Virus record (IMG/VR): IMGVR_UViG_3300035698_006226
Coordinates: 1-29,560 of that record
From: a virus
Direction: 5' to 3' (one strand)
Length of the DNA stretch: 29,560 bases
The notes beneath the pieces were generated by a model. The model saw only the letters and a list, made by a program, of their open reading frames with translations, searched no databases and had not been told where the DNA came from. The position numbers and the translations under genes are program-made. Shown here one piece after another: positions 1 to 28,861 of this stretch; within the stretch, counting starts at the first letter, position 1; every line of letters starts with the position of its first letter.

Positions 1-473
1 ACACGATCAACATTGCTCATGTTGTATACAGCATGATATTGATCACTGGTCCATGATAGATAGTTACCTTTCTCCCAACTTGAATAAACTGTATCTTCTA
101 TTTGAAACAATTGACCTGGTGTATGATCATGCAAAAAAACTATATATCTCACAATATCAGACAGATCTGTGATGTTGTGTATTTTACTAAATGTTGGGAA
201 GGTATCTCTATGCAGTGGCATTACTCTACCAGCAGGAATCTTAGATAAAGACGGTTCGACTATATCGAAATGATCGAAATATTCTAGTATGTCATCTACC
301 CATTCCGGCATTGGATTTGGTTTTTGGTAAACGTAATTCTGCATGATATGTTCATAATTTTTGTTCGTATAGTTTACAAAAGCCCCTTGCTTGTAGTTGT
401 TGTTATTCTCTTGCCATACAATGTCGTTTGGAATACTAATGTTTTTTATTGGAAGTTTACTGTGTACTTTCAT
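1..473 (-). CDS. 2OG-Fe(II) oxygenase-like protein, C-terminus missing
   Basis: The gene starts at ATG 473 and runs off the left edge, leaving 157 codons. Visible residues fit the iron-binding facial triad of 2-oxoglutarate dioxygenases: H88-x-D90 in a PLHRDTFPTF context, then H147, with R157 ten residues later where the 2-oxoglutarate-binding Arg usually sits. Such enzymes hydroxylate proteins, small molecules or nucleobases; the substrate is not evident. Its start shares one base with the folE stop (TAATG), so it is translationally coupled to FolE and is the last visible gene of the deazaguanine cassette. A role in modifying the inserted base is possible but is only inference from position. 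The family call rests on motif spacing alone; a related cupin-type hydroxylase is the main alternative. Confidence 0.55.
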   Translation of the reverse strand, partial: MKVHSKLPIKNISIPNDIVWQENNNNYKQGAFVNYTNKNYEHIMQNYVYQKPNPMPEWVDDILEYFDHFDIVEPSLSKIPAGRVMPLHRDTFPTFSKIHNITDLSDIVRYIVFLHDHTPGQLFQIEDTVYSSWEKGNYLSWTSDQYHAVYNMSNVDR

Positions 474-1156
474 TATCTAGGAGCAAATTCTTGTTGTAGT
501 TTTATGTTGTCCATGAATTCTTTTCTAGTGTTTGGATCTTGCAAGAATGCTCCTTCTAACACAGTTGTTTGTGTCAAACTGGAATGTGCCATAATACCTC
601 TGTTTTCACAACACCCATGTGTTGCTTGAATGTATACACCTACATCATTACTGCCAGTTGCTTTCATAATCTCTCTTGCAATGTCATTGCACAGTTCTTC
701 TTGTAATGTGCCACGTCTTGCACACCATTGTGCTATTCTTGTGTACTTGCTTAACCCTATTAGTCTTTCGCCTGCAATGATACCAATATATGCTGTACCT
801 GTAACTGGTTGATGATGATGTGAACACACACTTTTAAGTTCACTTCTTACAACCAACATGCCTTTATACCCTTCTTCGACATGATTAGGAAAAGCAGTTG
901 CATTTGGTATAGGATTATATCGTCCACTCATTAATTCATTGATGTACATTTTTGCAAGACGTCTGCCAGTTTCCATGCTGTTAGGATCGTTTTGTCTGTC
1001 AATGACCAAACTGTCTAGTACATCTTCAAATTTTCCTGTAAGTTCTTTTACAAGTTCTTCTTTTTCGCCTTCATGGATGAATTGACTGATGTTGTCACTC
1101 GCCCAAAATTTTGCACCTGCATCTTTTATTCTTTTTTTAATTTGTTCCGATATCAT
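473..1156 (-). CDS. folE: GTP cyclohydrolase I
   Basis: Converts GTP to 7,8-dihydroneopterin triphosphate, the first step toward folate and 7-deazaguanines (preQ0). The 227-residue protein is of normal length for FolE. Zinc ligands are visible: C111 with the following His cluster in SVCSHHHQP, and the HGCCENRG segment (C182/C183), matching the family CEHH and HxCMxxRG motifs. The GLSKYTRIAQW and LQEEL segments match the conserved GLSKxxR and QERL parts of the active site. It begins two bases after the stop of the glycosyltransferase gene and overlaps the following oxygenase gene by one base. In this context, with a DpdA-like and a QueD-like gene upstream, it most likely feeds deazaguanine synthesis for DNA modification rather than folate. 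Confidence 0.93.
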   Translation of the reverse strand: MISEQIKKRIKDAGAKFWASDNISQFIHEGEKEELVKELTGKFEDVLDSLVIDRQNDPNSMETGRRLAKMYINELMSGRYNPIPNATAFPNHVEEGYKGMLVVRSELKSVCSHHHQPVTGTAYIGIIAGERLIGLSKYTRIAQWCARRGTLQEELCNDIAREIMKATGSNDVGVYIQATHGCCENRGIMAHSSLTQTTVLEGAFLQDPNTRKEFMDNIKLQQEFAPR

Positions 1157-1158
1157 GA

Positions 1159-2232
1159 TTATATTGTACTATCATTTATTGTTTTATACAAGGTGTCTCC
1201 TGTAAAAAATTCTGTCTGCAATTTTTTCTTTTGTCTGTTAATTTCTGCAATATATTTAGAATAATTTTCCATCAAGTCAACAATTCTGTCCATAATTTTT
1301 TGTTTGTTCTGCTGATAACTCTGTATGTCTTGAGTCCATACATTAGGATATTTAAAAGTGTCAAGGAACATTTCTTTATATGATAGTCGATCCGGAACCA
1401 TTGCAATGGTGTCCACCAACAAGCCTTCGAAGCCTGATATGCCCAATGTTTCTTGTAGATTAGCACTGAACACTAATTTTGCTTCTCCTAGGAGATTGTG
1501 ATATTCGTGCTTCTTTAACTGTTTTTCTTGACACACCACAAACTCATACTGTGGCATTGCATCTTTAAGATCATAAAATATTTCTGGTTGTTTTTCAGGA
1601 GCCAGTCGGTGAGGGAAAAGAATCAAGTTTTTCTTTGTTAATCCGGTATATTCATCTAGTTCATGATGCATGTATTCCATAGGCCATCCTGTGCGTACTA
1701 CCTTAGCATCTTGGTGTGTCATTCCATATGTTAGGTTTAGAAAGACTTCATTCCACATGTTGATATGAAAGTCAGTGGCAAAGTAATTGTGGTCATAACA
1801 GTAAAACATTGATCGTTCAGCATGTCGAACCCAGTTAGCATTGCCGATCAATCTGCCTAGAAAGTCTTGTGGGTCATATGAACCTGCATGCCACATGCCG
1901 CCTATTTTAATTTTTACACCTAACAGTTCTGCCATATACTTCAGTTGAATCACAGTTGGGTTCCAAGCATCTGTATAGAGGAAATAGTCTCCGTCTTTAA
2001 CTTGACCATTACAGAATTTTTCAGCAATAATTTCTAACTGTTTAGATTTGTATACATTAGTACCACCAAAGTTTAAAAATGCTCCAGGTGTTGTTGCTTG
2101 TGGAGTTTCGCCACCTGATATAGTAACCACTTTACAATTAGTGTTTCTTTCGATTTGCCTAGGTAAGTGTTTCTTCCACTGTGCTGTGTAACGTGTTTCT
2201 ACTGCTTCAATGTCTACTATGTATACTGTCAT
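1159..2232 (-). CDS. GT-B (GT4-like) glycosyltransferase
   Basis: A 357-residue protein that looks like a two-domain GT-B glycosyltransferase. The C-terminal half has a FPHRLAPEKQP segment (like the RL-x-EK motif of GT4 enzymes) at about 207-216 and an E261-x7-E269 motif in NLQETLGISGFEGLLV, the usual nucleotide-sugar binding signature. The N-terminal half, at about 35-125, carries alternating strands and a GGMWHAGSYD stretch. Donor and acceptor are unknown. Its ATG overlaps the QueD-like stop by one base (TGATG), so it is co-translated within the DpdA-QueD-FolE cassette. That placement makes a glycosylated modified base an attractive but unproven idea. It could also act on a host or virion glycan. 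Confidence 0.7.
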   Translation of the reverse strand: MTVYIVDIEAVETRYTAQWKKHLPRQIERNTNCKVVTISGGETPQATTPGAFLNFGGTNVYKSKQLEIIAEKFCNGQVKDGDYFLYTDAWNPTVIQLKYMAELLGVKIKIGGMWHAGSYDPQDFLGRLIGNANWVRHAERSMFYCYDHNYFATDFHINMWNEVFLNLTYGMTHQDAKVVRTGWPMEYMHHELDEYTGLTKKNLILFPHRLAPEKQPEIFYDLKDAMPQYEFVVCQEKQLKKHEYHNLLGEAKLVFSANLQETLGISGFEGLLVDTIAMVPDRLSYKEMFLDTFKYPNVWTQDIQSYQQNKQKIMDRIVDLMENYSKYIAEINRQKKKLQTEFFTGDTLYKTINDSTI

Positions 2233-2591
2233 CAGTTTGTTTGTTTGTCATAGGTGCATGAACACCCATTTTCTCCATCCTCTGACACATCGATTGTGAT
2301 TTGTCTGCCAGGATATCTTGTTTGTATTGTTATTGCTAAATCATCTGCAATCATTTCACATGACTTATAATCAAGTTCTAGTGTGCCTCGATACAAATCT
2401 TCTAACCATCTTTTAAACAAAATAAATTCTATGTCTCTATCATCATGGAATACTTCTATCATTACTTTGAAATGAAAGATGTGTCTGTGTGGATATCCTA
2501 AGAATTCTACGCCTTTAAGATCAGGATCAGTCAGTGCCGCAGGATATTTGTGAATACCTTCTTTACAGAATTTTACCCAAATATTTTTCAT
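2232..2591 (-). CDS. QueD / 6-pyruvoyl-tetrahydropterin synthase-like T-fold protein
   Basis: A 119-residue protein with the layout of the QueD/PTPS family: an N-terminal H14 (GIHKYPAA), an HRHIFHF segment (H35, H37, H40) where the family has the zinc-binding HxH, a DIEFILFKRWL segment matching the GMVIDF-xx-LK part, and a DVSEDGENG stretch holding the usual catalytic Glu near the end. QueD makes 6-carboxytetrahydropterin from the FolE product, the second step to preQ0. Oddly, the family's nucleophilic Cys just before HxH is absent; Cys occurs only at 9, 78, 110 and 112. The reaction may therefore differ, or the protein may be a distant T-fold relative. Its ATG overlaps the preceding stop as ATGA. 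Between FolE and DpdA the pathway fit is good. Confidence 0.5.
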   Translation of the reverse strand: MKNIWVKFCKEGIHKYPAALTDPDLKGVEFLGYPHRHIFHFKVMIEVFHDDRDIEFILFKRWLEDLYRGTLELDYKSCEMIADDLAITIQTRYPGRQITIDVSEDGENGCSCTYDKQTN

Positions 2592-3097
2592 ATTGCTTTG
2601 TCCTTACTGTATTCTGCCCAATCAGTAAAATGCTTTTCAGTCATCATGTCTCTTACTGACCAACACCATACTCCTGGATTAGTTGCTTTGTAGTCACGGT
2701 CATCTAATTTTATTACTACATTGCCTTTCATTTGCATGATATTTTCTATTGGCAATGCATATACCACTGTAAATTTTTGATGTTTTAATAGATCATCTAT
2801 GCCTGGAATTCTAGGAGTTATAGGAATGTCTAAAGTTACGTAATAGTCTTCAAGTAAGGTTTCGATAATTCTCAGCAGACTTTCGTAATATTCACCGCCT
2901 AGGTGTTTCATTGAATGATTAGCACCAAGATATATGTGTGTGGCATTATTCTTTTTTGCCATTGCTTTGATTTTTTTAGAAGAGTGTACACCTACCACAA
3001 ACAATGTTTCTTGACCGTATGTTGGAGTTTTTTCAACTTCTTTGCCTGTAAAGAAAACTACATTATCTTTTACACCGTTATCATAATCACGTTTCAT
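2588..3097 (-). CDS. Unknown protein in the deazaguanine cassette
   Basis: I do not recognise this 169-residue protein. It is soluble, mixed alpha/beta, with a GQETLFVVGVHSSKKIKAMA strand-helix stretch (about 28-47), a HIYLGANHS segment and a conserved-looking C-terminal half (VVIKLDDRDYKATNPGVWCW, then WAEYSKD). It has a single Cys, so it is not a radical-SAM QueE, which needs a three-Cys cluster, and no QueC-type ATP-binding loop is seen. Its start (ATG 3097) lies inside the end of the small coiled-coil gene with an 11-base overlap, and it overlaps the QueD-like gene by ATGA. Its fixed position between the DpdA-like and QueD-like genes suggests a part in the same modification pathway. Confidence 0.75.
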   Translation of the reverse strand: MKRDYDNGVKDNVVFFTGKEVEKTPTYGQETLFVVGVHSSKKIKAMAKKNNATHIYLGANHSMKHLGGEYYESLLRIIETLLEDYYVTLDIPITPRIPGIDDLLKHQKFTVVYALPIENIMQMKGNVVIKLDDRDYKATNPGVWCWSVRDMMTEKHFTDWAEYSKDKAI

Positions 3098-3260
3098 TTT
3101 TATTGGCCATCTCTTTGTATTTTAATTTTTGTTTTTTTAGATCTAATAGTTCTGCTTTGTGTTCCCATGCTCTAACTAGTTCTCTTTGTGCTTCTAGTTG
3201 TTTCACACGTTTTTTAATTTTCTTAAGTTCCTGTTTGATATCATTCTGTTCTTCTACCAT
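3087..3260 (-). CDS. Small charged coiled-coil protein (57 aa)
   Basis: A short gene read directly from the sequence. It encodes 57 residues, nearly all helix-forming and charged: KQELKKIKKRVKQLEAQREL has Leu/Ile/Val spaced as heptads, followed by a second helix rich in Lys, Glu and Leu. It has the look of a dimeric coiled coil; no enzymatic motif is present. The ATG shares one base with the DpdA-like stop (TAATG) and the end overlaps the next gene by 11 bases, so coupling on both sides supports a real gene. It could be an accessory subunit of the DpdA-like enzyme, but the sequence only shows the coiled coil and the position. Confidence 0.75.
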   Translation of the reverse strand: MVEEQNDIKQELKKIKKRVKQLEAQRELVRAWEHKAELLDLKKQKLKYKEMANKNET

Positions 3261-4720
3261 TAAGCCTCCCTAAATAAATTATTAGACATAGTTGATGCAT
3301 TCACTGTTTTTTTACCTGTTGCTCCTCTAGTACCAATAATACTCTGCCAATATTTGCTATATTCTTGTATTATAGCATCTGCTACTTGTCTGTCATCCGT
3401 TGCAAATATGGCTTCAACAATATCTTTGAAATAAACCCTATCAAATTTTTCTTCAACTAACATCTTAGGAATTATACCATTATCGTATTGTCTATTTGCT
3501 TCTTGAACTGCGTTAATGTGCATCCATACATTGTGTCCCATCATGATTCCATATGAGAACGAATCCCATGATGTTTTACCTTCTTTACCGATCTTATTTA
3601 GGTCGCCTGGTCCGTATATGCATATATCTTTTGCTGTAAGTCCGTTACTAATAGGTGAGTCTAGGAAACTATGATGTTTACCTTCTCTCACAAATGCTTC
3701 TGCAAATGGAGTGGTATCTGTTGACATTGCTTTGTTGTCAATGCTTGGCACCATTCTGTACACCCATTTTTCTCTATCATTGGTTTCTAACTCGCAGTAA
3801 ATTTGTCCATTTGCTGTTGCTAGGAAAGGAGATGCACAATCAAATGTTACAGTAAAGTTGGGATTGTGATATTTTCTTACTGCTCTTTGAATGTCAGTGA
3901 GCAGTGTGGCCCATTCAAGTTTGGATGTACCCAAGAAATGCATGAAGTCATGTTTGCCTTTTTCTAGCAGTCCGTCAAATCGCAAAGCAACTAAGCGTTT
4001 TAGAACCAGATGAACATCACACATGTTTTGTCCACCCATACTCCAACCATTGAAATGATCTGAATATACTTTGGGATCACAGTAATCTTTCATTCTTTCA
4101 TACCAGTCATCTGCATCTGCATGATTTTCACCTTGCAATACATTTAAGAATTTACAGTTGCCGTTTCTATTCTTCATAAAGTAATCATTATTAATACGTG
4201 TAGCATCTACTGCTTCTTGGTACGTGCTAATTCCTGTTGCTTTTACTCCTTCAGGAGAACGAGCCACCCACGCAGGAATATCTAATATCATGCCATAGTC
4301 CATGTAAGCGTCCATCCAAGCAAGAACTTGTTCACGTTTTTTCTTTGCACGTGGGCAGTCAATGTCTTTCCAGTTGCCTTCCCACACGCCTTTACCTATT
4401 TGGAATCCTCCAGAGTCACCCAGCAACCATGATGTGTTTCTATCACGATTGCGAATCATATCTTCTTTAGGAGAATCTTTGTTGATGTCTAATTCTGCAT
4501 GACCGGCCGAGTATAATGTCCAATTATATTCAAACAGAGAATCTTTTGGATTGAGCCAATTGAGACTCTCCATATTGCCGTTAAAGTTAGCAGGCATACG
4601 TGCTGGATCAACATAGGTATTATCAACACGTTGTTTGCCTATAAATGTCGCATAGAATCCACTAAGAGCCGGAAGAAACACAGCATAGTCTTTTTGTACT
4701 TCAGTAAGATTCTTGTTCAT
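3260..4720 (-). CDS. dpdA: DpdA-like DNA transglycosylase (Tgt superfamily)
   Basis: A 486-residue member of the tRNA-guanine transglycosylase superfamily, longer than typical bacterial Tgt (about 375), as in phage DpdA proteins. The Tgt landmarks appear in order: GDSGGFQ at 101-107 (base-binding Asp), LNVLQG near 192 (like the FGIVQGG loop), WSMGGQN at 226-232 (like AIGGLSVGE), HFLGTSK at 261-267 (like LMGVGTP) and FDCASP at 293-298, where D294 aligns with the catalytic nucleophile. Known DpdA enzymes exchange guanine in DNA for preQ0 or derivatives, protecting phage DNA from restriction. It starts directly after the gp45 stop and is followed by coupled QueD-like and FolE genes. QueE and QueC are not in the window, so the host or a distant locus must supply them. 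A tRNA-directed Tgt is less likely given the length and neighbours. Confidence 0.85.
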   Translation of the reverse strand: MNKNLTEVQKDYAVFLPALSGFYATFIGKQRVDNTYVDPARMPANFNGNMESLNWLNPKDSLFEYNWTLYSAGHAELDINKDSPKEDMIRNRDRNTSWLLGDSGGFQIGKGVWEGNWKDIDCPRAKKKREQVLAWMDAYMDYGMILDIPAWVARSPEGVKATGISTYQEAVDATRINNDYFMKNRNGNCKFLNVLQGENHADADDWYERMKDYCDPKVYSDHFNGWSMGGQNMCDVHLVLKRLVALRFDGLLEKGKHDFMHFLGTSKLEWATLLTDIQRAVRKYHNPNFTVTFDCASPFLATANGQIYCELETNDREKWVYRMVPSIDNKAMSTDTTPFAEAFVREGKHHSFLDSPISNGLTAKDICIYGPGDLNKIGKEGKTSWDSFSYGIMMGHNVWMHINAVQEANRQYDNGIIPKMLVEEKFDRVYFKDIVEAIFATDDRQVADAIIQEYSKYWQSIIGTRGATGKKTVNASTMSNNLFREA

Positions 4721-5458
4721 TTATTTTGTTTGTGCAGGTAGTATGTACTGATATTTTGCCATACCAGAGTCTATAGTAATCTGCGCCGCACCATCATCTG
4801 AAAAAGCCATCTCGCAACTGCTAGACTTTTCTTGCAATTTTAGTATTGAAGTAATCTGTGCTATTGGCCATGACCATGATTTTGTTAAAGCACCTGTAAT
4901 ACCTTTTGCAAATGTAAATTCGCCTGCGTGTGATGATGCATCTCCAAATTTGAATTTTAATTCGTCACCATCTGTAGTAACTGTGAACACTTGTTCTTGC
5001 GAGTTTGCAGATGCTTGATGATTCAGTCTCATGATATCAGGCATAGTTGGATTTATTGTTACGTGCCAAGTTACTCCTCTAAATTGCACAGACTTTAATT
5101 TTTCTTCCACAATCTCTTTACTCATAAATCTATAATCATTTTGAAAATCACCTATAGTATTTTCGAAATGCAAACCTGTTGGCACAGTTTCACCGTTTCG
5201 TTCTTGTGTGTTCACTGTTATTTTTGCATCTTTGTATTCTGGAATCTTTAAAATAATATCTAATTGCCCCAAATTAGACATTCCAAATGTTCCTTGTATG
5301 TCAGAAACTGGCTTATGCATCTGTGCTTTTACAACAACTGCTCTGTCTTCGGCCATTGCGTCTAACTCTGTTTGTTTGTCATCTCCTACAATTTTTACTA
5401 GTTCTATAAAGCCTAGTGAATGTGTGTGAGCAACAATATCTTGTAGTATGTCTTTCAT
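4721..5458 (-). CDS. 45: T4-like sliding clamp gp45
   Basis: A 245-residue protein matching T4 gp45, the trimeric DNA polymerase clamp (228 residues in T4), which also acts as the mobile activator of late transcription in T4. The N-terminus (LQDIVAHTHSLGFIELVKIV) and repeated clamp-type strands, for example FGMSNLGQLDIILKIPEY and the C-terminal AQITIDSGMAKYQYILP, fit the family. It begins at ATG 5458 with a strong Shine-Dalgarno AAGGAG eight bases upstream and is the first gene after a TTGACT-N17-TATAAT promoter. The next gene downstream is the DpdA-like transglycosylase with no gap, so the clamp and the DNA modification genes appear to share a transcript. Being near the polymerase gene but on its own promoter is typical of T4-like replication clusters. 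Confidence 0.85.
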   Translation of the reverse strand: MKDILQDIVAHTHSLGFIELVKIVGDDKQTELDAMAEDRAVVVKAQMHKPVSDIQGTFGMSNLGQLDIILKIPEYKDAKITVNTQERNGETVPTGLHFENTIGDFQNDYRFMSKEIVEEKLKSVQFRGVTWHVTINPTMPDIMRLNHQASANSQEQVFTVTTDGDELKFKFGDASSHAGEFTFAKGITGALTKSWSWPIAQITSILKLQEKSSSCEMAFSDDGAAQITIDSGMAKYQYILPAQTK

Positions 5459-6351: not shown

Positions 6352-8985
6352 TTATCCAAATAGTTTGTCAAAAGTATTGTCTGCTTCTGAGTTACCTAGA
6401 TCCCAGTCTAACACACCAATTAAATTATCTAATTTTTTGTTGATCAATGTTGCTTCCATTTCGGCATCAGCAAAAGGCATTTCTTTGAACCAATCGGGAA
6501 TACGCAACTCATCTGTTGGATATGCAATCGACGTGTACCCCATAGGATTGTCTTTTAGTTTGCACACAATACATTTTTGTCCATCGATGATATCCATAGA
6601 ATATCTGTCGTTATAGACCTTTTTTAAAGTATTATAATTTATAGCCGCTCTCACATGACCTGGCATGTTCACTTTACCTTTACGTTTTTCTCGAGAATGA
6701 TATTCTGTTAGTTTGTTTACACGTCTAGGAGATCCTTTTTCCCATCCCGGCATCTTTTTGAATTCTAGTCTAAAGCCAGCAATAAAATCCATAACTTCTT
6801 CTTCTTCAGCACCGGTTAACACTTTATCTAACACATCAGACAAGAAGTCCTGTATGTAAGCAGGAGTGTCTGAACGTTTAAGATCAAGACCCATTGCTTT
6901 GATTTTATCAACTGGTTCACCTTCCAAGTCATAGATCTTCATAGCATATCTTTTTTTAGTGATGAATAATCCTTTTGAACCAACTGCTTCTCTACCACCT
7001 GCAATAATTTTACCATAAGTGGCCGGACAGTTAAACGCCTGTTGCATGTACTTTGGAAAAGACTTGTTAACTTCTTCTGCAACAGAGTCGTACAATTGCA
7101 CAACAGAATCTTTTGTCCATGGCACATTGCCTGCATCAATTTCTTTCTTCAAAGGTTGATATGCTGAAAAGTACACAGAGTCAGTGTCGCCATATATAAC
7201 GGAATCTCCTCTGTAATCATATTCGCCTGTGATAATTTCATTTGTTTTTGCCGCCATGTGCTTTGTGATACATCTTCCTGTGAGTGTGGTTGATTGACCA
7301 ATTCTGATATCAAAGAATCTACAACCAGGATTAAGAATAGCACCATACAAACTGTTCAAGTTAATTTTTTTAACAAGTTGTCTTTTATCCCAAAATGCTT
7401 GTTCAACTTTGTTGCCTGCCGCGGCAGATTGTCGCATTTTTTTCTGCAATTCTTTTCTTTCAGCATACCAACGTTCCAAAAGTCCAGGAATAACTCCTGC
7501 AAATTCATGTGTAAAAATTGTGCCATTTGCACTCAAAAACCATGGTTGATCTTTGTTGTATATCAAGTCATAAACCTCTGCCGCACTTAAAATATTTGTT
7601 TCACCATTTTCCCAATCAATAGTAATGCTTTGGGCTCTGTCTTTACGCATGACAGCAGAATACTCCAGTGTACCGAACTCACCTTCCCATGCACCTGCAA
7701 ATGTCATCTTATTAGCCATTTTGTGTTCGATAGAAGCATCGGTATCGATAGGACGTAATTGACCTACAATAGTTTCCGGACCCATATTCAATGCTCTAAT
7801 TACAGATGGATACAGTGAATTGATATCAATTGACCCTATCCAGTCATGCAGGCCTTTTTTAGGATATGCCACATACGCACCCGCGGCTGGAGTCGATCCT
7901 GGCTCACGTTTGATTCTGTCCGGAACAACCATGCCACGTCTGTGTGCTTCGTTGATAATGCCCTGTTCAGTCACTGCCACAGCACCCATGGTAGTTTGAA
8001 TCAACACTGTGTTCTGATGAGCAAGTTCATTAGACAGTGCTATAAACTTTAATTTTTCATCTAGTCTACCTAAAAGTGCAACGTCTTGTCTATTATATTC
8101 AATGAACTTTACAAAGTCTTTATTATACAACGTATCTAGTGTGCCTTCATACGGAGTCTTCTGCTCGCCCAATTCCATTTTTGAAATAAAATCCAGTGCA
8201 TATGAATGCCTTTCTTCGTATGTGTATTTTCTGTACAGTTGCATGTAATCCAAATGCACACGACCAATTATGTCATAGGTTTGTTCTTCCTTGCCAAATC
8301 TTTCAAACATTCTTTTTCGTGGCATAGCCTGCCACAAACACAGTCGTCTTGTGTCATCTTTGCTTAACACTTTTTGTATTCTGTTCACAGTGTAGGGAAT
8401 ATCAAATCCTTCTGAATTCCAACCTGACAGCACGTCTGCATCTTCAACCAGTGTAATAAATTTGTCCAACATGTCTGCTTCAGTGGGACACAGCATAGTA
8501 TTTTCAAATTCTTGTTCTATAATTTCTGGATTAGGAAAATCTTTAGGCGGAATAGCAAGAGTGATCAATTGATCGCACCATTGCAGATACACAGTGATTG
8601 ATATTATAGGCGCCCATGCGTCTGCAGGTTTAGCATAGCCTTTGGCTGGGTCAAAGTCAACTTCTATGTCAAAAAAACAAACTTGAAGTTCTGGAGCATC
8701 TTTGTTAAGATAATTTTCTTCTAGACATCTAAAGATAGGATTTATATCAGATTCATACAGACGTTTGCCATTTTGCATGGCAACTTCACGTTTAAATTCT
8801 TTTCCAGATTTAGTGGCTATTCTTGAAACAGGTGTGCCAAATATAGATTTGAATTTGCCTTTTGGATCATCGTAGTATCCTACGTATCTTGCAGGATATT
8901 CAAGATACTTTCTTTCGCCATTTATTCTTTCAACTACAGATATCTTGTCTGTGTCTCTGTCAAATAGTGCATCAACATAACTCAT
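6352..8985 (-). CDS. 43: T4-like family B DNA polymerase gp43
   Basis: The replicative DNA polymerase with proofreading exonuclease, 877 residues against 898 in T4. Exonuclease motifs: FFDIEVDF (D106, E108), WNSEGFDIPY and EYNRQDVALL. Polymerase motifs: SIDINSLYPSVIRA (motif A), KKINLNSLYGAILNPG (motif B) and VIYGDTDSVYFS (motif C), all with catalytic residues intact. It starts with an ATGA overlap with the upstream 75-residue membrane protein gene and is unbroken; no inserted intein or intron is visible at motif C or elsewhere. It is read from promoter P2 behind the DsbA-like gene and would work with the gp45 clamp encoded just downstream. Confidence 0.97.
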   Translation of the reverse strand: MSYVDALFDRDTDKISVVERINGERKYLEYPARYVGYYDDPKGKFKSIFGTPVSRIATKSGKEFKREVAMQNGKRLYESDINPIFRCLEENYLNKDAPELQVCFFDIEVDFDPAKGYAKPADAWAPIISITVYLQWCDQLITLAIPPKDFPNPEIIEQEFENTMLCPTEADMLDKFITLVEDADVLSGWNSEGFDIPYTVNRIQKVLSKDDTRRLCLWQAMPRKRMFERFGKEEQTYDIIGRVHLDYMQLYRKYTYEERHSYALDFISKMELGEQKTPYEGTLDTLYNKDFVKFIEYNRQDVALLGRLDEKLKFIALSNELAHQNTVLIQTTMGAVAVTEQGIINEAHRRGMVVPDRIKREPGSTPAAGAYVAYPKKGLHDWIGSIDINSLYPSVIRALNMGPETIVGQLRPIDTDASIEHKMANKMTFAGAWEGEFGTLEYSAVMRKDRAQSITIDWENGETNILSAAEVYDLIYNKDQPWFLSANGTIFTHEFAGVIPGLLERWYAERKELQKKMRQSAAAGNKVEQAFWDKRQLVKKINLNSLYGAILNPGCRFFDIRIGQSTTLTGRCITKHMAAKTNEIITGEYDYRGDSVIYGDTDSVYFSAYQPLKKEIDAGNVPWTKDSVVQLYDSVAEEVNKSFPKYMQQAFNCPATYGKIIAGGREAVGSKGLFITKKRYAMKIYDLEGEPVDKIKAMGLDLKRSDTPAYIQDFLSDVLDKVLTGAEEEEVMDFIAGFRLEFKKMPGWEKGSPRRVNKLTEYHSREKRKGKVNMPGHVRAAINYNTLKKVYNDRYSMDIIDGQKCIVCKLKDNPMGYTSIAYPTDELRIPDWFKEMPFADAEMEATLINKKLDNLIGVLDWDLGNSEADNTFDKLFG

Positions 8986-9483: not shown

Positions 9484-9512
9484 ATTATACTTGTGATTAG
9501 ATTGAAAGTCAA
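9484..9512 (-). promoter_or_regulatory. Sigma70-like promoter P2 for dsbA-gp43 operon
   Basis: On the minus strand: -35 TTGACT (9512-9507), 17-base spacer, -10 TATAAT (9489-9484), then AAGGAG at 9475-9470 and ATG at 9463. As at P1, the TGA stop of the upstream gene (here the DegT-like gene) is contained in the -35 box. The spacer is almost identical to that of P1. Confidence 0.8.
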
Positions 9513-10108
9513 CTGTTGCTGTTGGCAAACACTGACATTTTACTTAGATCAGGCCACTCTGTGATAGTCCATTGTTTTGGCACTGTTTGTATAGCACTCT
9601 CTAATTTGTGCAAACCTAATTGTGCAGTTTCGGGAGTCATATGGTAATGATAACCTATATCAGTAATATCTTGTTTTGCCCATGGAATGTTGGTAGTTCG
9701 TCCATCGTGGACCATTTTCTTCAATGTGTCATATGACATTTTATTATCTGTAAGAATCATTCCACCTCTTCCAAGATTAAGATGTTTCTTAAATTGAAAA
9801 CTTAAATTCATGTAGGTCTCTGGTATGTAAGAATCTTTTTTCCATAATACAGCAGAATCAATAATGTTGGTGTTGCCAAGATAATAATAATCTTGCCATT
9901 CTGATTTATCCCAATTCCAATCTAAATTTAGTTTTATTGCTGTGAATGGAACAGAAATATAAGTCCTGGTAGGAATAGTAATAAAATTTGCTTTGGTATG
10001 TCGCAAACACAATTCGATTCCGTGTGTGCATGAGTCTGTGGCAACAGCATACGGAGAACCAAAAAATTCTGCAATTTTATTTTCGAATTGATTGATTAAT
10101 TCAAACAT
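9509..10108 (-). CDS. Short DegT/DnrJ-type PLP aminotransferase-like protein
   Basis: A 199-residue protein resembling sugar aminotransferases of the DegT/DnrJ/EryC1 class, which transfer an amino group to nucleotide-linked keto-sugars. The order of landmarks is kept: FFGSPYAVATDSCTHGIEL (about 15-33, like the cofactor phosphate loop), IPTRTYISVPFTAI (45-58), NIIDSAVLW with D84 (PLP ring nitrogen contact), and SFQFKKHLNLGRGG (103-116), where K108 aligns with the Schiff-base lysine. Normal members have about 370 residues; this one stops after the large-domain core and lacks most of the C-terminal domain. The stop is an intact TGA inside promoter P2, so it looks like a stable short form, not a recent break. 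Amino-sugar metabolism or virion glycan modification is possible. Confidence 0.65.
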   Translation of the reverse strand: MFELINQFENKIAEFFGSPYAVATDSCTHGIELCLRHTKANFITIPTRTYISVPFTAIKLNLDWNWDKSEWQDYYYLGNTNIIDSAVLWKKDSYIPETYMNLSFQFKKHLNLGRGGMILTDNKMSYDTLKKMVHDGRTTNIPWAKQDITDIGYHYHMTPETAQLGLHKLESAIQTVPKQWTITEWPDLSKMSVFANSNS

Positions 10109-11323: not shown

Positions 11324-11938
11324 TTACGCTACTTCCTTGTACTTGCTTAATTGTTCTACTAGGAAGCCTTTGTGCTTGCCTCTGCTAATATATTTACCCA
11401 TACTCTTCTTCCAATGTAATGTATTATAGTTCCAGTCTTTGTTTTTGCAAAGTTCTTTAAACTCTAATCCGTTAACAGTATGTTCTTCGCCTGTGTTTGT
11501 AGTGATGCGATATGTATATTGTTCGCTACGCATACGAGAACTTTTAGATCCGCCCTTGGCATGCCAAGACTTATCCATACCAGTAAAGTTTTTGGCATAC
11601 TGTTGACCTGCTTTACGCTGGTGTTCTATAAAAGCATCGTAGTCATATTCTCTTAAACCGTGTAAATAATGTTTGCCACCGTATGCATTGTTATAAGACA
11701 TAGGATCTTTGACTACAGTTTCGTTGACTCTTTCTTTCTCCAACTCCCACAATTCATCTGCACTATTTGCTGTTGCAATAATTTCTTTAGTAAAGTTTTC
11801 AACGCCATACTTATTGATAGCATTTTTAATACCTATACCACTACCCATATAGGAATCATTTACATTTTTAGTAGCGTGTCTACCAATGTAATATTTTCCA
11901 TTTATATGGTTAGTTATTTTATAGATAGTATAATGCAT
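11324..11938 (-). CDS. GIY-YIG homing endonuclease
   Basis: A 204-residue protein starting YTIYKITNHINGKYYIG, the GIY-YIG nuclease signature, followed by the conserved Arg and helix (GRHATKN), GSG and AINKYGVENFTKEI, and a Glu in ELWELEKE that fits the metal-binding Glu. The C-terminal half (YTYRITTNTGEEHTVNGLEF onward, then TLHWKKSMGKYISRGKHKGF) looks like a small DNA-recognition module with an HTH-like segment. Free-standing enzymes of this kind cut allelic sites lacking the gene and spread by repair. The ATG shares one base with the preceding stop (TAATG), so it is inserted neatly between two late genes; no intron is seen. The following palindrome may have come with it. Confidence 0.88.
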   Translation of the reverse strand: MHYTIYKITNHINGKYYIGRHATKNVNDSYMGSGIGIKNAINKYGVENFTKEIIATANSADELWELEKERVNETVVKDPMSYNNAYGGKHYLHGLREYDYDAFIEHQRKAGQQYAKNFTGMDKSWHAKGGSKSSRMRSEQYTYRITTNTGEEHTVNGLEFKELCKNKDWNYNTLHWKKSMGKYISRGKHKGFLVEQLSKYKEVA

Positions 11939-25385: not shown

Positions 25386-27590
25386 TTATTCTCCTATGGT
25401 ATATTCGTCTTTGTTATAAGTTATTGTTAGTTTTTGATCTTTAATTTCGTCAAACAATATCTTTTTGGACAACGGTAACTTAATACGTGTGTTGATTACA
25501 CGTTGCAGTGATCTTGCCCCCATTTTTGGATCAAATCCTTCTTCCATTAGTTGTGCCTTTGCTATATCGTCTATTGTAACGGTAATTCCTTTATCTGTCA
25601 TCTGAGTATTCAATTGACTAATAAATTTATCTACAATATTTTCCATTATGTTTTTACCTAGCGAATTAAATCTTAACACAGCATCCAGTCTGTTCCTAAA
25701 CTCCGGTGAAAAGAATGCATTTATATCAATCTCTCCATCGTGTGTAGAGCCTTCTACAAAACCTAAGGTGTTAGCAGACATATCTTCTGCGCCTAGGTTT
25801 GATGTCATTATTATAACGGAATTGTTTAGTCTAACTTTTTTACCGTTTGAAGAAGTAATAACAGCATCGTCCATTGCTTGTAGCAGTATTGTCATCACAT
25901 CTCTGTGTGCTTTTTCTACCTCGTCAAACAGTATCACAGCATTAGGATGTTTTTCTAATTCATTTACCAATTGTCCCGATCCGCCGTCATCATATCCCAC
26001 ATACCCTGGAGGTGCTCCGAGAAGTTTTGCAACAGAATGTTTTTCTTGATATTCAGACATATCAAATTTTATCAACGGATAATTCAATCCCTCTGCTAAT
26101 TTACGAGCAGTTTCTGTTTTACCACAGCCTGTTGGGCCAACACATAAAAAAGATCCAATTGGTTTGTTTTCTTGTTTCAATCCTGCCTGTGCAACAAGCA
26201 CAGTGTCAACAAGTTTGTCTATAACATTGTCTTGACCAAACACTTCTGCTTTTATAATTTTATCTAAGTTCTCAAGCGATTGTGTTTTTGTTTGCACAAT
26301 AGATTCAAATCTCACACCTGATATTTTTGACACTTGTTCTTGTACATCTTTTATTTCTACATCTTTAAATGCATCGAATATTTTCGCTTTAGAACAAGCA
26401 CGATCTAGAACATCAATAGACTTGTCAGGCAACTGTCTATCTGTAATGTACTTGACACTCAAATCAACAGAAGCATTTACTGACGCATCGCTAATTTTTA
26501 CTTTATGATACTGTTCAAACTGTGTTTTAAGACCTTGCATAATCTCCTTTGCATGTTCTATAGTTGGCTCCTCAATATTAACTTTACCAAATCTACGCAT
26601 TAATGCTCGATCTTTTTCGAAGTGTTTTCTGTATTCTTCCCAAGTTGTTGAAGCAATTACTTTTAGTTCTCCCCTTGCTAACGCAGGCTTCAATAACTGT
26701 GCTAAATCAACACCACCTTGTCCGCCTGCACCTGCGCCATGCATCATGTGTGCTTCATCTATAAACATAATAGACTTATCATTCTTTTCTAATACAGATA
26801 GTAGAACTTTAAGACGTTCTTCAAAATCGCCTCGATATTTAGAACCTGCTATCAATGATCCTACATCAACAGAATAAATTGTGTGATCTTTTAATACTTC
26901 AGGAACTTTATTTTCTACTATCATGTGTGCTAGGCCTTCTGCTATTGCAGTTTTACCTACGCCTGGATCACCTATCATGATTACATTGTTTTTAATTTTT
27001 CTACCAAGTACCAATGTTATTTCGTTTACAACATCTTGTCTACCTATACAAGTGAATGTTTTGTTTGCTTTGGCTTGTTCATTAAGATTCACAGTGTACT
27101 GTTGCAGTATTCTTGCCGCTTGTTTAACAGATACTTTATTATCTTCATCATAATCAGAACCCAGGTCAGTCATGTGATCAACAACAACTTTTCTAGTAAG
27201 TCCATTTTTAGTCAAGTAGTATTGTGCATGTGATTCTTTTTCTCCATAGATAGCACCTAGTAAATGGAATAGGTTGACTGTCTGTTGTCCTTGGAATATT
27301 GCATTAGTGAATGCTCTGTTCACAGCACGTTCAGTTGCCTGCGTTCTTTTTGGGTATACATCATCGTTGCATTTGATAGAATTCATTTTATGTTCAATAT
27401 GATATTCTATATCTTTTATAAGTTGTTCTGCCTTTACAGTTGGTTTTGTTTTTATCATTTCGACTATTTCAGGTTGCACTAAAATTATAAGCAATAGATG
27501 TTCTAATGTAACATATTCGTGTTTGTGCGTTCTTGCAACTTTTATTGCTTCGTCAAAAAGTTCTTTGAGTCTATCGTCTGCTTGGATCAT
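25386..27590 (-). CDS. clpA: ClpA-like AAA+ protein unfoldase
   Basis: A 734-residue Hsp100 protein, close in length to E. coli ClpA (758). Order: Clp N domain (1-140; [13 protein letters not shown]), AAA+ 1 with Walker A GDPGVGKT (207-214), Walker B IMFIDEA (274-280) and [20 protein letters not shown] typical of ClpA, then AAA+ 2 with GPTGCGKT (485-492), [11 protein letters not shown] (552-562) and sensor 2 GARSLQRVI. There is no long middle coiled coil, which rules out ClpB. The loop LGF at 609-611 matches the ClpP-docking tripeptide, so it should pair with a ClpP; none is encoded here. It probably redirects host ClpP in infection. It overlaps the deformylase gene by 20 bases. Confidence 0.9.
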
Positions 27591-28086
27591 TTGCTTTTCC
27601 CTGTCTTTTTCTTGCCATGTCTAGTTTAAGTTTACTTGCATAATCAATAAACAGTTTCCCGTCTAAGTGATCAATTTCATGTAATATACATTGTGCCCAC
27701 ATATTGTCGAATCTGTCAACTCTTTTTTCTAGTTTTTCATCATAATATTCTAACACAATCCATTTTGGTCTTTGTAGTTTTAAGAATAAATTAGGAAAAG
27801 ATAAGCATCCTTCTTCATTAAACTGTTTCTCTTTGGAACGTTCTGTAACGTGCGGATTAATAAATGTTCTAAATCCATGCATTACAAACATACGAATTCC
27901 TACATTAACTTGATTTGCCGCTAACCCTAAACCATTAGCATTAATCATTGTCCATGCCATAAGATCTGCAATTTTATCGTATTCCAAGTCTTGTGTAAGA
28001 TCAGATTCTGGTAATACATGTCGTAAAACTTCGTTACCTTCTAGGTTTAATTTAAGGATATTTTTTTGCGATTCGGTTGATGTCAT
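27571..28086 (-). CDS. def: Peptide deformylase
   Basis: Removes the formyl group from the N-terminal Met of new proteins. The 171-residue enzyme has all three family motifs: GLGLAANQ (52-59), EEGCLSFP (91-98; metal ligand C94) and HEIDH (136-140; His ligands and catalytic Glu). The C-terminal part is short and basic ([18 protein letters not shown]). It starts at ATG 28086 with a perfect AGGAGG six bases upstream, located in the end of the DnaJ gene, giving a 35-base overlap. Deformylases are common in marine T4-like phages. In this operon it sits between a chaperone and an unfoldase, so all three genes act on new or damaged proteins. Confidence 0.95.
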   Translation of the reverse strand: MTSTESQKNILKLNLEGNEVLRHVLPESDLTQDLEYDKIADLMAWTMINANGLGLAANQVNVGIRMFVMHGFRTFINPHVTERSKEKQFNEEGCLSFPNLFLKLQRPKWIVLEYYDEKLEKRVDRFDNMWAQCILHEIDHLDGKLFIDYASKLKLDMARKRQGKANDPSRR

Positions 28087-28861
28087 CTCTGTCCTCCTTT
28101 GTTAAGTTTTTTGGTATTGATACATTTATTTTTAAAAAACAGTCACCAACCCTGTTGGCCTGATTGACTAACCCATATTCAGGTATCTTCATTACTAGGC
28201 CAGGTTGTGTGCCTGCAGGCACTTTGACTGTTAAAGTTTTACCGTCAATTGTTGGCATTTGAACTGATGTTCCGTTTATAGCATCAAAACAACTAATTGA
28301 TTTTTCAGTTATTAAATTAAGTCCTTCACGTACAAATATACGATGTGGGTTAACATAAACTTTGCATAACAAATCCCCAGGCGTTGCAGTAGGCACCGTG
28401 CTCATGCCTAATCCTTTATACCTAATGCTTTGTCCATTGCCTATTCCTTTTGGTATTGTTATTTCTAAATCTTTATTAATTTGATCAACATGAATTTGTT
28501 TTTTATTACCGTGATATACGTCTTCAAGTGTTGCTTGGATTGATATTTGTATATTCCTGTTTGCTGATCGTCTTTGAAATGGACTACCACCAAAGAATTG
28601 TGCAAACATGTCTTGCATGTCAGCAGGATTGCCACCTGTTGAAAAATTAAAACTGTTACCATGTCTAGAAGACATCTCGTACTTCTGTCTTTTTTCAGCA
28701 GTTTTTATTATGTCATATGCTGTGTTTATTTCTTTGAACTTGGATTCGTCACCGCCTCTATCTGGATGATGCTGTACTGCTAGTTTACGAAATGCTTTTT
28801 TGATATCTGCATCAGTAGCAGAAGCATCAACTCCAAGAGTCTTGTACGGATTCATAGTCAT
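28052..28861 (-). CDS. DnaJ-like (CbpA-type) Hsp40 co-chaperone
   Basis: A 269-residue Hsp40. The J domain spans 1-65 with HPD at 32-34 (VQHHPDRGG), which stimulates the ATPase of Hsp70 (DnaK). A Gly/Phe-rich linker follows (FNFSTGGNPADMQDMFAQFF, GGSPF), then two beta domains for client binding (IQISIQATLEDVYHGNKKQI, ITIPKGIGNGQSIRYKGLG, LTVKVPAGTQPGLVMKIPEYG). The four C-x-x-C-x-G-x-G repeats of DnaJ are missing, so it is class II, like CbpA. No DnaK is in the window; it must use that of the host. ATG 28861 or the second ATG at 28855 may be the start; there is no Shine-Dalgarno. Confidence 0.92.
   Translation of the reverse strand: MTMNPYKTLGVDASATDADIKKAFRKLAVQHHPDRGGDESKFKEINTAYDIIKTAEKRQKYEMSSRHGNSFNFSTGGNPADMQDMFAQFFGGSPFQRRSANRNIQISIQATLEDVYHGNKKQIHVDQINKDLEITIPKGIGNGQSIRYKGLGMSTVPTATPGDLLCKVYVNPHRIFVREGLNLITEKSISCFDAINGTSVQMPTIDGKTLTVKVPAGTQPGLVMKIPEYGLVNQANRVGDCFLKINVSIPKNLTKEDRDDINRIAKKYP

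Follow-up and report, generated by a model that had tools for sequence, protein, structure and literature searches.

A predicted QueC-free, DpdA-type DNA modification cassette with a linked glycosyltransferase in marine phages

Organization and conservation of the cassette

The virus record IMGVR_UViG_3300035698_006226 is a fragment of 29,560 bases, analyzed here in its entirety and referred to as the window, which ends one partial gene beyond folE. A string of minus-strand genes headed by a DNA polymerase includes a probable sliding clamp, a DpdA-like transglycosylase, a T-fold-like protein, a GT4 glycosyltransferase (GT) and FolE (Table 1), and the gene content suggests a variant of DpdA modification that does without QueC and is probably decorated with a sugar. 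The strong parts of this interpretation are the transglycosylase, the presence of QueE and FolE, the absence of QueC, and the GT4 and T-fold proteins as constant partners.

Table 1. Features of the minus-strand gene string in the window (aa, amino acids; ORF, open reading frame)
Feature	Coordinates	Strand	Basis
Family B DNA polymerase, head of the gene string	6352..8985	-	phrog_262, E 4e-200
Probable sliding clamp, 245 aa	4721..5458	-	phrog_12062; homologue annotation and place after DNA polymerase
DpdA-like DNA-guanine transglycosylase (predicted), 486 aa	3260..4720	-	GDSGGFQ and FDCASP motifs; fold and profile
57-aa ORF, coiled-coil-like	3087..3260	-	Position and overlap; similar short ORF in 13 loci (BLAST)
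Conserved 169-aa protein	2588..3097	-	Constant in marine loci
T-fold-like protein, 119 aa	2232..2591	-	phrog_17812 (PHROG of unknown function); His pattern and co-occurrence
GT4 (GT-B) glycosyltransferase, 357 aa	1159..2232	-	Structure model and motif residues
FolE, GTP cyclohydrolase I	473..1156	-	PF01227 (GTP_cyclohydroI), E 1.7e-39
Partial ORF cut by the contig end	3..473	-	By eye, iron/2-oxoglutarate oxygenase-type

From the clamp to the ORF at the contig edge the genes are spaced by 0, -1, -11, -4, -1, +2 and -1 bases, and since adjacent ORFs overlap or abut, the coupled transcript that was originally predicted is plausible; the gene list given with that prediction was incomplete, omitting the 57-aa and 169-aa ORFs and the GT, the last being the most unusual part of the operon. 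The FolE assignment, also part of the original prediction, is regarded as certain from its family match. For four of the proteins (DpdA-like, GT, T-fold and 169-aa) searches of Pfam, NCBIfam and PDB sequences gave no match, and it was comparison of structures and profiles that proved informative; among PHROGs the T-fold and clamp ORFs fall only in families of unknown function. The 169-aa protein has a profile match (probability 98.9) to the gene preceding dpdA in Acidovorax phage ACP17. No Pfam or PHROG family matches the edge ORF above the cut-off, and related ORFs are present in three other loci (L004, L010 and L023).

The same gene order is repeated in more than 100 viral contigs of marine origin and thus does not reflect chance. 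Counts of downstream genes refer to the 78 marine loci that extend at least 6 kb past dpdA: the GT, T-fold and 169-aa genes are each present in all 78, folE in 75, a phosphoribosyltransferase gene in 72, queE in 60, and a COG1738-type queuosine-precursor transporter gene in six. QueC was found in none of these 78 loci, none of the 143 marine loci overall, and none of 20 longer records above the cut-off. The original prediction had both QueE and QueC absent, which holds for QueC; in relatives QueE is encoded downstream, just past the point corresponding to the window's end, which indicates that phages of this type do have it and that the window simply ends too early. The QueE family matches PDB entry 6nhl, a 7-carboxy-7-deazaguanine synthase (E 1.3e-8), as well as the NCBIfam QueE models. 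The preQ0 pathway set of FolE, QueD, QueE and QueC is therefore not complete, with FolE encoded in the window, QueE and QueD in relatives, and QueC missing.

Several further features accompany the cassette in its marine relatives. In the QueE variant (L031:17299-18192 and its family) a long insertion separates the second [4Fe-4S] cysteine from the third (C31, C35 and C75 in the PA5oct copy). The transporter gene lies near folE at L020:10061-10744 and in nine other loci, with TIGR00697 matches above cut-off. In two closer relatives a guanosine monophosphate (GMP) reductase gene directly follows folE (L007:6154-7197 and L010:15120-16163), which together with the phosphoribosyltransferase suggests that purine recycling is linked to the cassette. 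The L031 IMG/VR record (256,558 bases) and related records have up to 20 clustered radical-SAM domain matches in a single viral record, a number unusual for a phage, and a QueC-superfamily ATP-pyrophosphatase is found among clusters of this type. Five cassette contigs (L107-L111) were binned into metagenome-assembled genomes (MAGs) of unrelated bacteria and archaea, namely Neomarinimicrobiota, Pacearchaeota and Euryarchaeota, and are probably mis-binned phage DNA.

The transglycosylase, the clamp and the T-fold protein

The DpdA-like protein contains the two motifs by which it was first recognized, and the aspartates within them, Asp102 (GDSGGFQ) and Asp294 (FDCASP), are the equivalents of the catalytic D102 and D280 of tRNA-guanine transglycosylase (TGT), are retained as in the TGT/DpdA superfamily generally, and are invariant in a family alignment of 28 diverse relatives. 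The alignment has no invariant Cys beyond residue 297, downstream of the nucleophile Asp294, and the Cys3His zinc site of the tRNA enzymes is therefore absent. An AlphaFold model of moderate confidence (predicted local distance difference test score, pLDDT, 66) contains the (beta/alpha)8 barrel of TGT, and all 50 listed PDB matches are to TGT, the best having an E value of 1.8e-5, a probability of 1.00 and a template modeling (TM) score on the target of 0.50. Comparison with a seven-protein DpdA2 profile using hhalign gives a probability of 95.1 (E 3e-8) over residues 95-308, the catalytic half. Whole-record profile searches with the DpdA-like family returned no match in 9g, nt-1, CP220, HVTV-1, Dp-1 or phiSM; 9g and nt-1 represent DpdA1 and DpdA2 respectively, and CP220 and HVTV-1 are presumably the DpdA3/DpdA4 types. 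BLAST with the DpdA-like protein returned no 9g- or nt-1-type record, and with nt-1 or 9g DpdA as query the PA5oct group was not among the matches listed. By these comparisons the protein belongs to the TGT/DpdA superfamily, where DpdA2 is its closest group, and lies outside the DpdA1-DpdA4 representatives tested.

Relatives of the DpdA-like protein are encoded in at least 599 IMG/VR stretches and in 13 matching cultured records, of which 11 belong to the PA5oct/Paride group and the others are Sinorhizobium phage Phosso and Vibrio phage 2.275.O. In 2.275.O the relative is accompanied by QueF, a COG1738 transporter, QueC, an amidotransferase-like protein and FolE, a neighbourhood that ties the subfamily to deazaguanine chemistry; QueF (PF14489) was found in this phage alone. 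The fold, the DpdA2 profile match, the conserved aspartates, the QueE and FolE neighbours and the 2.275.O arrangement make it well supported that the enzyme belongs to a deazaguanine cassette, and its substrate would be DNA.

In 131 of 133 marine loci a clamp homologue immediately precedes dpdA. The ORF had been labelled gp45, and by profile it matches neither T4 gp45 nor any clamp in the PDB; its homologue in phage Phosso is annotated 'sliding clamp', and with its position after the DNA polymerase this makes it a probable clamp. The adjacency had also been proposed as a tie between modification and replication. However, dpdA lies beside the clamp in phage 9g and cyanophage Yong-L2-223 as well, and adjacency is thus not by itself evidence of a new replication coupling. 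A clamp is also present within or near the dpdA cluster of Dp-1 and phiSM, and none is annotated near dpdA in the stretches read of nt-1 and KVP40. The linkage recurs and is of interest where modification after replication is concerned, but it has been seen before.

The T-fold protein, originally labelled QueD-like, retains a histidine pattern of the metal-ligand type (H14, H35 and H37) and its family has an invariant SCE motif, but the QueD catalytic Cys and DH motif are lost. It has no Pfam PTPS match, and hhalign comparisons with QueD, QueF and FolE gave just a weak C-terminal match to QueD; a match of its profile to a designed repeat protein in the PDB was spurious. A true QueD is present in all nine of the T-fold phages searched for it, and three marine relatives encode one at a locus of its own. 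Because true QueD coexists with the T-fold protein in the same phages and the QueD catalytic residues are lost, these sequence comparisons indicate that the T-fold protein is not QueD.

Cultured phages carrying several DpdA types have a member of the T-fold family, and the distribution of this family is nearly exclusive of that of QueC. Eleven T-fold phages were searched whole (PA5oct, ACP17, X1, Phosso, RHph_I1_18, phiST, Bakedbeans, Ahp1_CNU-2021, BUCT-ZZ01, D479 and MA9V-3), together with 13 records without the T-fold gene (9g, nt-1, KVP40, Moby, Dp-1, phiSM, CP220, 2.275.O, pf16, PhiXhv-12, VPv64, R5C and Yong-L2-223; PhiXhv-12 was included on account of its GT rather than a confirmed DpdA). 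QueC exceeds the Pfam cut-off in just one of the former (D479, a partial match) and in all 13 of the latter (Fisher p 6e-6, a value that ignores kinship and comes from a progressively chosen record set). The simplest reading is that the T-fold protein acts after QueE and replaces QueC, which would make it most likely a candidate enzyme acting on 7-carboxy-7-deazaguanine (CDG) and the marker of a route that stops at the QueE product. Cui et al. in 2023 reportedly described dDG and dCDG in phages and, for those with 7-deazaguanine, proposed DpdL as a decarboxylase of CDG. DpdL may be the T-fold protein described here. To our knowledge, that description includes no glycosyltransferase.

The glycosyltransferase and related phage systems

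A model of the 357-aa protein (pLDDT 84) has its best PDB matches among GT4 enzymes, with BshA, whose acceptor is malate, and glycogen synthase first, and the residues R209, K214 and E261-x7-E269, which form the usual GT4 donor-site pattern, are invariant in the family. The predicted fold and these residues identify it as a GT4 glycosyltransferase of the GT-B type, and the ACP17 homologue has a Pfam Glycos_transf_1 match, albeit under the cut-off.

The GT and T-fold genes stay with DpdA in PA5oct, ACP17, X1, Phosso and BUCT-ZZ01 although the type of DpdA varies. The order in ACP17 is 169-aa gene, DpdA2, GT, T-fold and QueE, and in X1 it is GT, DpdA2, T-fold and QueE; BUCT-ZZ01 has consecutive DpdA2, T-fold and GT genes, and in Phosso the T-fold and GT genes overlap each other, with FolE and QueE nearby and DpdA located elsewhere. 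A 447-aa gene of BUCT-ZZ01 was rejected as the GT, the family profile instead selecting the gene that starts at position 7644 of the BUCT-ZZ01 stretch (L188), directly after the T-fold gene; a 370-aa gene following dpdA in Vibrio phage 2.275.O was likewise rejected by profile comparison. A more distant relative of the cassette GT is present in Xanthomonas phage PhiXhv-12 (L206, 2669-6755), where a Gat-QueC fusion, a PIG-L N-acetylglucosamine (GlcNAc) de-N-acetylase, the GT4 relative and a GFO/IDH/MocA oxidoreductase are encoded consecutively. This looks like a second, QueC-using cluster for a sugar-deazaguanine, and it is a second tie between this type of GT and the chemistry of deazaguanines and amino sugars. 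The constancy of the GT and T-fold genes across DpdA types and the PhiXhv-12 cluster thus provide good circumstantial evidence, drawn from gene content, for sugar decoration of a deazaguanine, perhaps with an amino sugar.

Comparison with described systems shows a mosaic of shared and distinct features. The DpdA2 systems of Vibrio phages nt-1 and KVP40 (PMC6884629) are similar in having a TGT-fold enzyme with both aspartates, FolE and QueD partners, and in belonging to large T4-like phages, but they include QueC and have no T-fold protein, whereas the window cassette has the GT4, T-fold and 169-aa genes and no QueC; their DpdA2 and the DpdA-like protein show no BLAST or single-profile match in either direction. 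ACP17 (KY979132) shares the 169-aa gene, DpdA, GT4, T-fold, QueE and FolE and also has no QueC, but its DpdA falls in the DpdA2 group, QueD is inside the cluster, and several of the genes are annotated as hypothetical. The Pseudomonas phage PA5oct group (NC_071039) has a DpdA of the same subfamily (37%) in the order polymerase, clamp homologue, dpdA, GT, T-fold, phosphoribosyltransferase and QueE; it differs in that its 169-aa gene is only a weak distant match, and in the record no gene but that for QueE carries an annotation pointing to a modification system. In the phage 9g dG+ system (KJ419279) dpdA similarly lies directly after a sliding clamp and is followed by folE and queD, but the DpdA is DpdA1, the clamp is of the bacterial type, and a Gat-QueC fusion and an archaeosine product are present. 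The QueC-free deazaguanine phages with dDG or dCDG resemble the window cassette in that the route is predicted to end at CDG or 7-deazaguanine, and Cellulophaga phage phiST has a T-fold gene with QueD, QueE and FolE and no QueC.

Proposed modification and alternatives

We consider it reasonably probable that the operon is a DpdA-type DNA base-modification cassette independent of QueC, with the GT most likely adding a sugar. FolE together with QueD and QueE, the latter two encoded elsewhere in the genome as seen in relatives, would convert GTP to CDG. The QueC step from CDG to preQ0 would go unused, the T-fold protein taking the place of QueC in the gene set and most likely acting on CDG, for example by decarboxylating it to 7-deazaguanine. 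The DpdA-like enzyme would swap guanine in phage DNA for the modified base by the covalent TGT mechanism, with Asp294 as nucleophile and Asp102 as general acid/base by analogy with TGT, and the base, once inserted, would most likely receive a sugar from the GT4 enzyme. Guanine released in the exchange may be recycled by the phosphoribosyltransferase encoded beside QueE. The more specific proposal, in which a new DpdA subfamily inserts CDG or a product of it and GT4 then glycosylates the base in the DNA, is advanced tentatively, at somewhat below an even chance; glycosylated 7-deazaguanine would be a DNA hypermodification common among ocean phages and without a description in the literature searched, where queries for DpdA together with a glycosyltransferase returned general papers only. 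A recent precedent exists for a carboxyl group on a DNA base serving as a handle for further modification (PMC12783734).

Several observations weigh against this interpretation. Loss of the carboxyl group through the T-fold protein would remove the obvious sugar acceptor, making the T-fold and GT steps hard to combine. Vibrio phage D479 has both the T-fold gene and a partial QueC-family match, similar to the second, separate copy in KVP40. QueD was seen in only the three marine relatives, and several long but incomplete contigs (up to 256 kb) show none. QueE is seen neither in the window nor in its nearest relative running past folE, L004 (93% in DpdA), whose contig stops some 3.5 kb past folE. 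In five marine contigs a radical-SAM cluster includes a QueC-superfamily gene under the cut-off, and the DpdA model has a pLDDT of only 66 and a TM score of about 0.5. The QueC-like matches in the five contigs (15 bits) were rejected as QueC, being of the ATP-pyrophosphatase type with best NCBIfam matches to NAD synthase/TilS, under cut-off; a 315-aa gene on a 335-kb MAG contig was also rejected, its likeness to QueC being confined to about 70 residues.

The alternative that survives best, although we regard it as rather unlikely, is a QueC-free modification without a sugar, such that the DNA contains 7-deazaguanine or CDG and the GT targets a cell-surface sugar or another base. The neighbourhoods read of phiST, RHph_I1_18, Ahp1_CNU-2021, D479 and MA9V-3 have T-fold and DpdA-like genes and no GT of the cassette family, showing that the T-fold protein and DpdA can stand alone, and the marine relatives have many other sugar genes. 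Weighing against it, the GT is never missing from the 78 marine cassettes, in PA5oct, ACP17, X1, Phosso and BUCT-ZZ01 it has dpdA or the T-fold gene as a neighbour, and a relative lies with a GlcNAc de-N-acetylase in the Gat-QueC cluster of PhiXhv-12.

The original prediction envisaged insertion of preQ0 or a derivative, with the host or a remote phage locus providing QueE and QueC. Since T-fold phages almost always lack QueC, preQ0 is an unlikely product, and we judge this scheme improbable even though QueC is frequent in bacterial hosts, the COG1738-type transporter, which is of the preQ0/preQ1 kind, occurs in ten marine loci and in 2.275.O, and 2.275.O encodes QueC and QueF with a relative of the DpdA-like gene. 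These phages bring FolE, QueD and QueE yet consistently no QueC, whereas phages of the preQ0 type carry it, and the presence of the T-fold gene predicts its absence. That the enzyme is instead a TGT altering host or phage tRNA is highly improbable, for while its fold and catalytic residues are those of bacterial TGT, the zinc-site Cys/His set is absent, the related cassettes are of the DpdA type and lie among replication genes, and we know of no tRNA queuosine pathway with T-fold and GT partners of this kind.

Exchange of guanine for a deazaguanine shields phage DNA from restriction. If the QueC-free, sugar-adding interpretation is correct, the cassette would represent a new class of hypermodified DNA and a new chemical camouflage against bacterial defences, and would account for an operon of unnamed genes that is conserved both in marine phages of great abundance and in the PA5oct/Paride group. 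The QueC-free branch would have its own marker gene in the T-fold family, and a linked glycosyltransferase. Cultured carriers exist (PA5oct, ACP17, phiST and RHph_I1_18), so the interpretation is directly testable. Some sequencing libraries may contain too little of the DNA modified in this way, a point of relevance to surveys of ocean viruses.

Elsewhere in the window, an ORF at 9509-10108 resembles DegT/DnrJ sugar aminotransferases but is just 199 aa long, the family being matched mainly over short stretches, and a GIY-YIG type homing endonuclease is encoded at 11324-11938. Consecutive genes for a ClpA-like ATPase, a peptide deformylase and a DnaJ-like protein (25386-28861) form a phage-encoded protein quality-control set.

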